NCBI GenBank assembly: GCA_018645325.1
Contig: JABGOU010000028.1
Location: forward strand, 6,856-51,145
DNA from: Desulfobacula sp.
Lineage (GTDB): Bacteria > Desulfobacterota > Desulfobacteria > Desulfobacterales > Desulfobacteraceae
Direction: 5' to 3'
Length of the DNA stretch: 44,290 nt
Part shown: piece by piece, positions 10,925 to 28,230 of the stretch
Layout: each line of letters opens with the position of its first letter
How positions within the stretch are numbered: position 1 is the stretch's first letter
The notes under the pieces: generated by a model
What the model was told of the DNA's origin: nothing
Seen by the model: only the letters and a program-made list of their open reading frames with translations
Databases searched by the model: none
Made by a program: the position numbers and the translations under genes

Positions 10925-10959
10925 AAAAGGGAAAGAGCTGTGTAAACTCTTTCCCTTTT
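10925..10959 (-). terminator. Hairpin between dppA and dppB, cluster 1 (attenuator)
   Basis: Perfect 13-bp stem AAAAGGGAAAGAG / CTCTTTCCCTTTT with a 9-nt loop, placed between the stop of the binding-protein gene and the first permease gene. On the minus strand it ends in a short U-rich tail. Such intercistronic hairpins usually cause partial termination or protect the upstream mRNA, giving excess binding protein. The second transporter has an unrelated hairpin at the same place (14448-14481). Confidence 0.75.
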
Positions 10960-10967
10960 TTTAACAT

Positions 10968-12572
10968 TTATTTAAACGACACGTTTTTCAATCTCACACT
11001 TCCCGTGGGATGAAGTTTGAAATTCATGACATTTTTTGTTGAAGGCCAGATAACCGTTGAATGGGCAATGGGGATCGTGCCCACTTCATCAAAAATCACC
11101 TGGAGTGCTCTTTCATAGATTTTAGTACGTTCAGCCTGATCAATGGTGGTTTTACCCTTGATCATCAAATCGTGATATTCAGCGTTATGCCACTGAGTCC
11201 TGATGGAAGGAGAGGCAAGGCCGTCAAAAAGAACGGCAAGGAAATTATCAGGGTCACCATTGTCACCGGTCCATCCAAGCTGGAACATATCCATGTCATC
11301 GGGCTGTTCACGTTGTTTTTTAAGGTAAGTACCCCAGTCATAGCTGACAATCCTTGCCTGGATGCCGATTTTTGCAAGATTTGAAACCATGGCAACACCG
11401 ACCTTAAGCCCTTCAGGGTTATAGGGACGGGGAACAGGCATTGACCAGAGTGTTATTTCGCCCAGGCCCTTACCGTCTTTAAAACCGGCTTTTTCAAGCT
11501 CTTGCTTGGCAAGCTCAACATCAAAGGCAAAACCCGGGACGTTTTTATTATACCCCCACATGGTTGGAGGAATCGGGTTATTTGCAACCTGGCCCATACC
11601 CTGATAGATATTATCAACAATCGCTTTTCTGTTGAGGGCGTGTGCAACGGCTTTTCTTAAATGCAGGTTACTCTTCCAGGGTTCCTTGGTAAAGTTGAAA
11701 GACAGGTAGCCAACATTCATGCCCGGCTGGGAAATCAGCTGGAGATTTTTATCTTTTTTTGCAAGGGGAATATCTGCGGGATTTGGGAATTGGCAGACAT
11801 TGATGGAACCGGTTTTAAGCTCAAGAAATCTTACTGAGTTTTCAGGGATCGCCCGAAAAATGACTTTATCAAAATAAGGACCGCCTTTTTTATCCCAGTA
11901 ATCATTAAACTTTTCAAGGACGATTTTATCATCTTTTACCCAGGAGACAAATTTAAAAGGACCTGTGCCAACAGGTTTTCTCAAAAATTCTTTTGGATTG
12001 GAAAGAAAGGCTGTGGGGCTGATAATATCGGCAAAATCCATTCCCATATTGGCAAGGAAAGGAGCCTCTACTCTTTTTAATTTGAATACAACACTATAGT
12101 CGTCAATTGCTTCAATGGAACCGATGGTGCCGTCCATTTCCATGGATGCCCAATATTCAGGGGTTCGATCCTGTTTAGGGATATCGTAACCTTTTCCAAT
12201 GAATTTGACATTGGTCTCTTTCATCATTCTGCCGATGGAGAAAACCACTGCATTTGCATTAAATGGGGTGCCGTCATGGAACTTGACACCTTTTCTCAAA
12301 TGGAAGGTATAGGTCAGACCATCAGCAGCAATTTCCCAGGATTCAGCAAGGCCGGGTTCAAGAGCGGTTGATTCGTCTTTGTAAAAAACCAGAGCTTCAA
12401 AGATATTGTCACATACCATAAACGAGTTACCGTCGGTTTCATATGCAGGATCAAGGCCTACACTATCACCACCACGGCCAAAAACAAAAGTTCCTCCGGC
12501 CTTTGGGGCCGCAAAAACAGAACCGGAAAATAAAAACATTAATAATGTTAAAAGTATCCCTATCTTTTTCAT
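10968..12572 (-). CDS. dppA: Peptide ABC transporter substrate-binding protein (DppA/OppA type), cluster 1
   Basis: Periplasmic family 5 binding protein of 534 residues. The ATG at 12572 has an AGGAGG site 8 nt upstream and opens a clear signal peptide (MKKIGILLTLLMFLFSGSVFA, cleavage before APKAGG). There is no lipobox Cys, so the mature protein should be free in the periplasm. Family marks include LAESWEIAADGLTYTFHLRKGVKFHDGTPFNA and the C-terminal hinge regions. First gene of the minus-strand dppABCDF-like operon and divergent from the second transporter. Its ligand is probably short peptides; dipeptides, oligopeptides or related compounds cannot be told apart from sequence. Confidence 0.92.
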   Translation of the reverse strand: MKKIGILLTLLMFLFSGSVFAAPKAGGTFVFGRGGDSVGLDPAYETDGNSFMVCDNIFEALVFYKDESTALEPGLAESWEIAADGLTYTFHLRKGVKFHDGTPFNANAVVFSIGRMMKETNVKFIGKGYDIPKQDRTPEYWASMEMDGTIGSIEAIDDYSVVFKLKRVEAPFLANMGMDFADIISPTAFLSNPKEFLRKPVGTGPFKFVSWVKDDKIVLEKFNDYWDKKGGPYFDKVIFRAIPENSVRFLELKTGSINVCQFPNPADIPLAKKDKNLQLISQPGMNVGYLSFNFTKEPWKSNLHLRKAVAHALNRKAIVDNIYQGMGQVANNPIPPTMWGYNKNVPGFAFDVELAKQELEKAGFKDGKGLGEITLWSMPVPRPYNPEGLKVGVAMVSNLAKIGIQARIVSYDWGTYLKKQREQPDDMDMFQLGWTGDNGDPDNFLAVLFDGLASPSIRTQWHNAEYHDLMIKGKTTIDQAERTKIYERALQVIFDEVGTIPIAHSTVIWPSTKNVMNFKLHPTGSVRLKNVSFK

Positions 12573-26767: not shown

Positions 26768-27451
26768 ATGATAGTCGGCGAACATAAACCAATTGAAGAG
26801 ATAATAGAATTAGTAAAAGACTTTTCAAATATACTGGTAGTAGGGTGTCAAACCTGTGTGGCAGTAAGCCTGACCGGTGGTGACAGGGCAGCAATATCAA
26901 TGACTGAAGCACTTGCCCATGCTTTTAAGGAGAAAACAAAACTTCATTTATTTGAAAGCACCATGTTGGAAAGGCAGTGCGAAAAAGACTGGATCAAACC
27001 TTTTTTTGATCTTCCCGAAGGCGTTGATGCCATTTTGTCCCTTGCATGCGGTGCCGGTGTTCAAACCATGGCGGATATATTTAAAGGCATCCCTGTTTTA
27101 CCTGGATTAAATACAACTTTTCTCGGTGCACAGGATCAGGCAGGTGTTTTTAATGAGAAATGCGCAGGATGCGGAGATTGTGTTCTAGGATTAACAGGTG
27201 GGGTATGCCCCATTGCCAGATGTGCAAAAAAACTTTTTAACGGACCCTGCGGTGGATCAACAAATGGAAAATGTGAGATAAGTATATCCATGGGCCATGA
27301 TGTTGAATGCGCATGGCATTTAATTGTAGAAAGGCTCAAAGAGCTTGACAAACTTGATAACTATGAAAAGATCAGTGAAATAAGAAACTGGATCCCAGGT
27401 GGTGCTGGAGGACCAAGAAAATTGGTCCATAAGGGTGAAACGCCTTTTTAA
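26768..27451 (+). CDS. metV: MetV-like protein (methylenetetrahydrofolate reductase C-terminal domain)
   Basis: Protein of 227 residues of the MTHFR_C family. Cysteines are rich: VVGCQTC near the N-terminus and, in the C-terminal half, CAGCGDCVLGLTGGVCPIARC and FNGPCGGSTNGKCE, which fit Fe-S/zinc binding as in MetV. In acetogens and sulfate reducers MetV pairs with MetF to form methylenetetrahydrofolate reductase in the Wood-Ljungdahl pathway. Here no metF is adjacent; two ferredoxin genes precede it instead. It may supply the electron-transfer module to a MetF encoded elsewhere, or have another partner. AATAGGAGA ribosome-binding site. Confidence 0.85.
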   Translation: MIVGEHKPIEEIIELVKDFSNILVVGCQTCVAVSLTGGDRAAISMTEALAHAFKEKTKLHLFESTMLERQCEKDWIKPFFDLPEGVDAILSLACGAGVQTMADIFKGIPVLPGLNTTFLGAQDQAGVFNEKCAGCGDCVLGLTGGVCPIARCAKKLFNGPCGGSTNGKCEISISMGHDVECAWHLIVERLKELDKLDNYEKISEIRNWIPGGAGGPRKLVHKGETPF

Positions 27452-27463
27452 AAATATTTATTA

Positions 27464-27646
27464 TCACAACCTGTTAACAGGGATATTGGCAAGTTTTTCC
27501 TCAAGGTACTCGTCCATGAGGTCTTTATACCTGTCTTCGGGATAATTTTTTGCACAGGACCTGCAGCAAAAATAGACTTTTGTTCAGGTCCTTTTAATAT
27601 ACAGTCTTCCGCCGCAGGCCAGACATTTCTCTTTTATATCTTTCAA
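27464..27646 (-). CDS. Small putative selenoprotein with dual CxxC motif (in-frame UGA)
   Basis: Frame of 60 codons plus stop that only appears if the TGA at 27584-27586 (codon 21) is read as selenocysteine. It starts with TTG at 27646, with AAGGA 7 nt upstream and an in-frame stop before it. The product has Cys pairs CLAC (8, 11) and CRSC (28, 31) plus Cys27, separated by IKRT-Sec-TKVYF. Downstream of the UGA the frame stays open for 39 codons with coding-like character and ends at TGA 27464-27466. A SECIS-like hairpin follows the UGA. I recall a database family called dual CXXC motif small (seleno)protein that fits this layout. Function unknown; a redox or metal-binding role is plausible. 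Alternative: a pseudogene with a nonsense mutation. Convergent with metV. Confidence 0.7.
27547..27572 (-). promoter_or_regulatory. SECIS-like hairpin downstream of the in-frame UGA
   Basis: On the minus strand, TTTTTGC / GCAAAAA form a 7-bp stem around a 12-nt top (TGCAGGTCCTGT) that shows GGUC at the tip. The GGU lies 22 nt after the UGA; in E. coli fdhF the corresponding distance is 18 nt and the tip is also GCAGGUC. This is the arrangement expected for a bacterial SelB-binding SECIS. Activity is inferred. Confidence 0.65.
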
Positions 27647-27747
27647 TATTTTATCCTTTATTTTTTAAATTCCTGAAGATAAAATAAAGCCTATGATTAT
27701 AAAAGTCAAAAAAAATACAACAATTGATAAATGGAGCCTTATAATAG

Positions 27748-28230
27748 ATGGGGAAAAACCAAGATAAATACAATATGAGCTATCCCATATCCTGGGAACA
27801 ACTCCACAGAGATTCAAAAGTGCTGTCATTGAGGCTGCACGACAGGGAGAAACCGTGGAAAGGTATTGTTGCTGTCACAAGAGGCGGCATGGTACCTGCT
27901 GCTATCATTGCAAGGGAACTTGGGATACACTATATTGATACCGTCTGCATCACAAGCTATAACTGGAAAGACCAGGGAAAGGCAAAAATCCTGAAATCGG
28001 TTGAGGGTTCAGGTGAAGGCCTTTTGATTATTGATGATCTTGTGGATACCGGCGCCACAGCCAAAATTGTAAGAAATATGCTGCCGGATGCATATTTTGC
28101 AACAGTATATGCCAAACCCGCCGGCAAACCCTTGGTGGATGCCTATGTGACCGAAGTAAGTCAGGATACCTGGATTCTTTTTCCCTGGGATTCAGAGTCT
28201 CAGTTTGTAGAACCTATAGCCGGAAAATAA
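27748..28230 (+). CDS. gpt: Xanthine-guanine phosphoribosyltransferase
   Basis: Purine salvage enzyme of 160 residues that joins xanthine or guanine to PRPP. The PRPP-binding loop is LLIIDDLVDTGATAKIV, and the N-terminal VAVTRGGMVPAAIIARELG and C-terminal WILFPWD are typical of Gpt. The ATG at 27748 has GGAG 11 nt upstream; a second ATG at 27775 lacks one. Stand-alone gene, convergent with argG. Confidence 0.9.
   Translation: MGKNQDKYNMSYPISWEQLHRDSKVLSLRLHDREKPWKGIVAVTRGGMVPAAIIARELGIHYIDTVCITSYNWKDQGKAKILKSVEGSGEGLLIIDDLVDTGATAKIVRNMLPDAYFATVYAKPAGKPLVDAYVTEVSQDTWILFPWDSESQFVEPIAGK

Follow-up and report, generated by a model that had tools for sequence, protein, structure and literature searches.

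A probable selenoprotein gene of the dual CXXC motif family in Desulfobacula and the association of its family with dsrA

A short frame on the minus strand of a Desulfobacula contig carries UGA as its 21st codon, which raises the question of whether this codon ends a gene or is read as selenocysteine and, if it is read, what the resulting protein might do. The frame lies in a stretch of 44,290 nucleotides (GenBank assembly GCA_018645325.1, contig JABGOU010000028.1, positions 6,856 to 51,145), the whole of which we refer to as the window. A first-pass annotation, made from the letters alone, had proposed a small, unannotatable selenoprotein gene with a SECIS element.

The frame and its product

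The elements named in that annotation, a minus-strand frame with a TTG start, an AAGGA site, two CxxC motifs, TGA at codon 21 and 39 further sense codons (codons 22-60), can be read directly from the sequence.

27464..27646, minus strand: probable NF041197 selenoprotein gene encoding 60 residues, running from a TTG start to a TGA stop with TAA TAA behind it
27654..27658, minus strand: AAGGA ribosome-binding site, 7 nt before the TTG
27646-27644, minus strand: TTG start codon, as read from the sequence
27614..27625, minus strand: first CxxC (CLAC, codons 8-11), predicted zinc knuckle 1
27584..27586, minus strand: UGA codon 21, very probably read as selenocysteine; TGA in 21/21 close sequences, window included
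27554..27565, minus strand: second CxxC (CRSC, codons 28-31), whose codons carry the putative SECIS loop
27467..27478, minus strand: C-terminal tail VNRL, up to the stop; family consensus CDRL
27466-27464, minus strand: final TGA of the gene, with TAA TAA next in frame

With the codon-21 TGA read as U, the product is LKDIKEKCLACGGRLYIKRTUTKVYFCCRSCAKNYPEDRYKDLMDEYLEEKLANIPVNRL. The UGA codon sits between CLAC and CRSC, in the motif RTU. Thioredoxin-like selenoproteins of the CxxU/UxxC kind also have selenocysteine with cysteines nearby, but the window product contains neither CxxU nor UxxC, as the first reading had already remarked for CxxU. The TTG is the sole ATG, GTG or TTG codon upstream in the frame, and the block AAGGATAAA likewise precedes the TTG in L157, L158, L159, L160 and L166. 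Close relatives do not all share this exact start: eight of 20 have a non-start codon at this position (the others have TTG in six, ATG in four and GTG in two). Under table 11, no open reading frame of at least 60 amino acids overlaps the place of the gene.

Membership in a catalogued family

The window product matches the NCBIfam model NF041197.2, "dual CXXC motif small (seleno)protein", with 72.9 bits (cut-off 40; E 1.7e-20), residues 8-60 aligning to positions 1-53 of the 53-position model. This is exactly the family that the first-pass annotation had named; the label "unannotatable" does not hold, since the model covers the gene and the family is catalogued as OS_HP3. The UGA is conserved and flanked on both sides by coding sequence. 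The model is matched by all 64 members of our alignment A2, and the invariant columns in 64 sequences, with U given as C, are C8, C11, U21, C28 and C31. Compared with NF041197/OS_HP3, the window gene agrees in its whole-model match above the cut-off, dual CxxC, Sec column, length and RTU motif, and differs in nothing defining; it is one more member. No family scored above its cut-off in a Pfam search, and an Rfam search of the window returned nothing at gathering scores.

The catalogue entry for NF041197 gives it as hypothetical protein OS_HP3, with RxU as its motif and Zhang and Gladyshev 2007 as its source; an entry for hypothetical protein DW, with motif GxU, is placed under the same model (PMC13188914). 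The passages on DW in the deep-Sep paper present it as new, and OS_HP3 in Desulfosarcina widdelii is given there as the one known selenoprotein overlooked by the deep-Sep tool (PMC12013277). Where OS_HP3 appears in the relevant entries of these sources, it is given by name and motif, with no role (PMC13188914, PMC9312934, PMC12013277). Accession SMF39960.1 is listed as OS_HP3 in the 2022 review (PMC9312934) and as protein DW in the 2026 review (PMC13188914).

Conservation of the UGA codon

Of the 395 genomes of the phylum that we surveyed, 112 carry the family, 88 of them with a match above the cut-off; we read the sequence at 79 of 89 places above the cut-off and 40 of 55 weaker ones. Cultured carriers include Desulfatibacillum alkenivorans DSM 16219 (L177). 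The group above the cut-off is nearly all of the window's form (RTU type with a CDRL-like end, plus Cys lineages) with one place of a second, GRU type (G231); the 40 weaker places comprise 32 of the GRU type, four of family f59 and four of family f17. The column of codon 21 is readable in 118 places and holds U in 90 and Cys in 28: above the cut-off, 52 of 79 have U, 26 have Cys and one fragment (G370) is without the column, and among the 40 weaker places 38 have U and two have Cys. No relative that we read has an ordinary residue there. One scan of named genomes gave 24 loci from Desulfobacula, Desulfotignum, Desulfobacteraceae and others (35-83% identity), and UGA is present in all 24.

The codons after UGA also behave as coding sequence. 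In a comparison of 21 sequences, window included, in which 20 of the 24 scan loci also take part, pN/pS is 0.268 after UGA and 0.348 before it, and third positions account for 389 of the 612 post-UGA differences between the window and its 20 relatives. Purifying selection together with this third-position bias therefore indicates a frame in use beyond the UGA. That the UGA is a true stop followed by debris, in a nonsense mutant or a chance frame, is hardly credible: the frame is short, its TTG start is not common to all relatives and the hairpin alone is not significant (see below), but UGA is kept in 24/24 scan loci, the codons after it are under purifying selection and the product matches NF041197, and we rejected this explanation.

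Selenocysteine machinery

All four genes that the first-pass annotation had proposed to search for were found in the same genome: selA (582.9 bits, cut-off 267.9), selB (337.8 bits, cut-off 242.25), the tRNA-Sec gene selC (75.5 bits, cut-off 47) and selD (342.4 bits, cut-off 125). The selD gene at L156 (G000:C125:34334-35260) has an in-frame TGA of its own, and the selenophosphate synthetase of this genome is probably itself a selenoprotein. As a discriminator between genomes tRNA-Sec is useless, being present in 344 of the 395 surveyed; four of the 89 genomes with Sec forms lack it in a strict search.

Taken together, we consider it very probable on comparative grounds that the window gene belongs to family NF041197 (OS_HP3) and genuinely encodes a selenoprotein, its UGA being read as selenocysteine. 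The first-pass annotation was right on the selenoprotein, and the family itself was already known. That annotation had named three observations that would speak against its claim, and in each case we found the reverse: homologues carry U or C at codon 21, selABC is present and relatives with an ordinary residue at that codon did not turn up.

A probable RNA signal within the codons of the second CxxC

A hairpin follows the UGA, with the apical loop GUC, or GGUC when the closing G is counted as the first-pass annotation had done. That annotation likened this tip to the one in E. coli fdhF.

27547..27572, minus strand: putative bacterial SECIS-type hairpin, apical loop GUC at 27560-27558

The published bacterial SECIS model has a loop of 3-9 nt with G among the first two loop bases, lying 16-37 nt after the UGA, and a folding energy of at most -7.5 kcal/mol (PMC13188914). 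The window hairpin has 11 bp, one bulge and a folding energy of -8.3 kcal/mol, and its loop, GUC, lies at a distance of 23 nt from the UGA. It falls inside these limits but is not decisive by itself. Its folding relative to shuffled sequences has z = -1.38, with 18 of 200 shuffles folding equally well, and it ranks 0.205 among synonymous recodings. Taken alone, the window hairpin is weak evidence, and we rejected it as stand-alone proof since shuffles and recodings fold nearly as well.

SelB with Sec-tRNA would read UGA codon 21 guided by this hairpin, whose loop falls in the Arg and Ser codons inside the second CxxC (CRSC). Our own SECIS scan passes 47 of the 52 Sec places above the cut-off and 12 of the 26 Cys places there, the latter because CxxC codons favor such a hairpin, and 32 of 38 Sec and none of two Cys places among the weaker matches; it gave no match for the window itself, where the piece, folded in isolation, had to be paired at each end. 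Relative to synonymous recodings, z averages -0.79 at Sec places above the cut-off, -0.07 at Cys places above it (Mann-Whitney p 0.005) and -0.18 at the weaker Sec places.

Codon choice gives a clearer picture. Arg29, whose codon lies in the loop, is encoded by AGG in 20/20 cases among the 21 close sequences, compared with 2/18 for Arg19 and 4/21 for Arg59. At wobble position +24, G is found in 49 of the 52 Sec places above the cut-off and in 15 of the 26 Cys places there, which stem from five families (p = 1.8e-4); among the weaker Sec places the count is 27 of 38. We regard this RNA-level constraint on codons, as read from sequence comparison, as better evidence for a SECIS element than hairpin energy. 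The AGG data also illustrate how an RNA signal shapes the amino acids that separate the two cysteines of this motif in CRSC.

Covariation was mixed. Alignment A1 holds 30 of the 52 Sec sequences, picked for a loop register of 22-23 nt, and its pair counts therefore lean towards the hairpin. In these 30 sequences 77.8% of hairpin cells are paired, compared with at most 52.2% for slid versions, and doubly changed cells number 23 in A1 versus 9.7 in shuffles, a count reached by 0 of 500; the version slid by -1 exceeds the true register on this measure, with 32. Neither the number of pairs with double changes (5 vs 4.2, 201 of 500 shuffles as high) nor that of further pair types (16 vs 15.2, 211 of 500) was above shuffles in A1. 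RNAalifold retains five pairs.

Sec places of both groups show two loop registers, at about 16-17 and 22-23 nt after the UGA, corresponding to the stretches +16 to +20 and +22 to +26. Among the weaker places, Arg at codon +6 is encoded by AGG in 9 of 10.

Predicted fold

The AlphaFold2 model of the window's form is of low confidence (pLDDT 66) and has strands at 14-19 and 24-28 with residue 21 in the turn. For the sister (GRU) form, modeled with pLDDT 90, Sec16 lies in a loop between strands 9-13 and 20-23, and a long helix follows. Strand order and Foldseek neighbors lead us to read both forms as zinc ribbons; with both, Foldseek returned polymerase and other ribbons, with no match below E 0.2. 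The window's form gave many matches to chain I of eukaryotic RNA polymerases, which we take to be RPB9-like (best E 0.44, prob 0.94, rmsd 1.2, 33 columns), and the sister form matched ribosomal or initiation-complex chains. Sequence comparison also pointed weakly to zinc-ribbon proteins, HypA and LysW among them.

RPB9-type and other small zinc ribbons have two CxxC knuckles flanking a beta-hairpin. The window product would, on its model, resemble such proteins (HypA, LysW, IF2-beta) in this arrangement and differs from them in its Sec, and the matches are weak and short. As we read the model, its strand order also differs from that of thioredoxin. The product is predicted to be a small zinc ribbon with Sec exposed at the hairpin tip: the two knuckles would hold a metal, and the residue in the turn of the intervening beta-hairpin would present an exposed selenol. 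If this prediction holds, selenium would be employed here in an unusual way, as a Sec residue on the tip of a zinc ribbon.

Genomic neighbors of the window's form

The window gene stands alone between two genes on the opposite strand, given here for context only.

27748..28230, plus strand: xanthine phosphoribosyltransferase, divergent neighbor
26768..27451, plus strand: methylene-THF reductase C-terminal domain protein (DUF5981), convergent neighbor

The xanthine phosphoribosyltransferase adjoins the gene in 10 of 24 relatives. Across 61 of the 79 places above the cut-off, those on loci of at least 4,900 bases, we found no constant operon partner of the window's form. The gene truA lies downstream within 1 kb in six loci, from six families of the window's order, and fabD, asd, alaS or pyrE adjoin the gene elsewhere; for each of these five genes one or two representatives were named by NCBIfam and the rest by eye from the first 70 residues. 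In three families (L105, L106, L088, L095), Cys forms ending in IIYD or similar start 10-38 bp after pyrE, whose identity was confirmed for L105 and L088.

A sister form in dsr clusters

Profile comparison of the window's form with the sister form (hhalign 98.1%, E 1.3e-13, 62 of 64 sequences used) indicates that the two are homologous. We infer from the GxU motif alone that the GRU form is protein DW; if so, the window product and DW are homologous small proteins with Sec at the same place, differing in that the GRU form has GRU where the window's form has RTU. The GRU form further differs in its longer C-terminal helix, in the absence of the CDRL tail, in its position below the NF041197 cut-off (32 of the 33 GRU-type places read) and, in some families, in its occurrence in dsr clusters.

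Genes of the dsr set lie within 6 kb in seven of 40 weaker loci, all of the GRU type and from five families, and in none of 61 loci of the window's form above the cut-off. DsrM, K, J, O, P, A and B were named by NCBIfam at two of the seven, and in G029 a gap of about 170 bp separates the small gene from dsrA, which is downstream of it. Coordinate comparison adds five cases of the small gene and dsrA within 6 kb (G181, G290, G270, G346 and G249). The dsr-adjacent loci share gene order and may stem from one event.

Within the seven loci (L154, L128, L139, L140, L126, L143 and L118), dsrP is the immediate neighbor of the small gene in four; in one the small gene precedes dsrA by about 170 bp, and in two it lies farther from the dsr genes. 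Each of the seven also has, within 6 kb, genes resembling those for a DVU0298-family protein and a TPR protein.

Co-occurrence with dsrA and possible roles

Among the 395 genomes of this one phylum, dsrA, called by TIGR02064 at E <= 1e-80, accompanies the family in 106 of its 112 carriers, and 83 of the 283 genomes lacking the family have it too (Fisher p 1.4e-35, calculated without regard to phylogeny). Six carriers miss dsrA at this threshold, among them the window's genome; that genome has a partial dsrA match at 10939-11295 of the 11297-base contig C138, 2 bases from the contig end. Counted by family label, dsrA is present in 38/38 carrier families and in 17/70 others; among the 38, f1 is included on the strength of that partial match, and f18 because of genomes in it other than the carrier. 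Family NF041383, used as a control for the link, gave no usable signal, with weak matches in 249 genomes and none above the cut-off. Among open-licence PMC papers we found none linking the NF041197 family to dsr, and as far as these searches reach the association is new. It is the part of this analysis most worth following, as a first lead to the role of the family, and together with the sister form in dsr clusters it turns an orphan family into a testable candidate in sulfate respiration.

We tentatively propose, as a reading that may well prove wrong, that the product is a cytoplasmic selenol protein serving dissimilatory sulfur metabolism. Disulfides, persulfides or trisulfides, such as might be borne by a DsrC-like carrier, would undergo nucleophilic exchange with the selenol, and the C-terminal (C/V)(D/N)R(L/I) tail would act as a docking element. 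The argument for nucleophilic exchange chemistry is that the residue in the hairpin turn is always Sec or Cys in readable cases, and the company of dsrA would point to the sulfur species or disulfides of sulfite reduction. A stricter version, which we consider doubtful, makes the family a dedicated part of dissimilatory sulfite reduction, in which a zinc ribbon with a selenol at its tip would move or release sulfane sulfur, for example by resolving the DsrC trisulfide or by shielding against polysulfide, one form being encoded in dsr clusters and the window's form elsewhere in the genome.

Part of the dsrA link may reflect common descent among sulfate reducers. It is possible that such descent explains all of it, the protein belonging to a general cytoplasmic thiol-disulfide or peroxide defense of strict anaerobes: the neighbors are variable, the window's form is absent from dsr loci (0/61), and in 17 families dsrA occurs although the gene does not. 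Yet almost all carriers are genomes with dsrA while tRNA-Sec is far more widespread (344/395), dsrA accompanies carrier families in 38/38 cases as against 17/70 of the others, and the sister form lies in dsr clusters of five families.

The ribbon-like models invite two further explanations. One, which we judge rather improbable, takes Sec as a metal ligand or as a trap for metals or metalloids, in a zinc or soft-metal chaperone with no redox or sulfur exchange; the two CxxC knuckles and the matches to HypA, LysW and other zinc-ribbon proteins would suit it, but four knuckle cysteines could already complete a site, the models put Sec in the hairpin turn, and no metal transporter was recognized in neighbor clusters of at least four families, few neighbors having been searched against family models. 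A regulator acting on RNA polymerase or the ribosome, in which the Sec tip would sense redox state, is unlikely. The chain I matches, the ribosomal and initiation-complex chains found with the sister form, and the position of the window's form beside truA, alaS or pyrE in some families are consistent with it, but zinc ribbons are ubiquitous, the E-values are poor and the neighbors vary from clade to clade.

Variants among the weaker matches

Two groups among the weaker matches depart from both the RTU and the GRU form. In family f59 (L124, L127, L130, L150), CxC replaces the first CxxC, and the Sec and a CDR(L/V/I) tail are kept. Family f17 (L145, L148, L149, L152) represents a third variant, with the motif UQG and without the CDRL tail.
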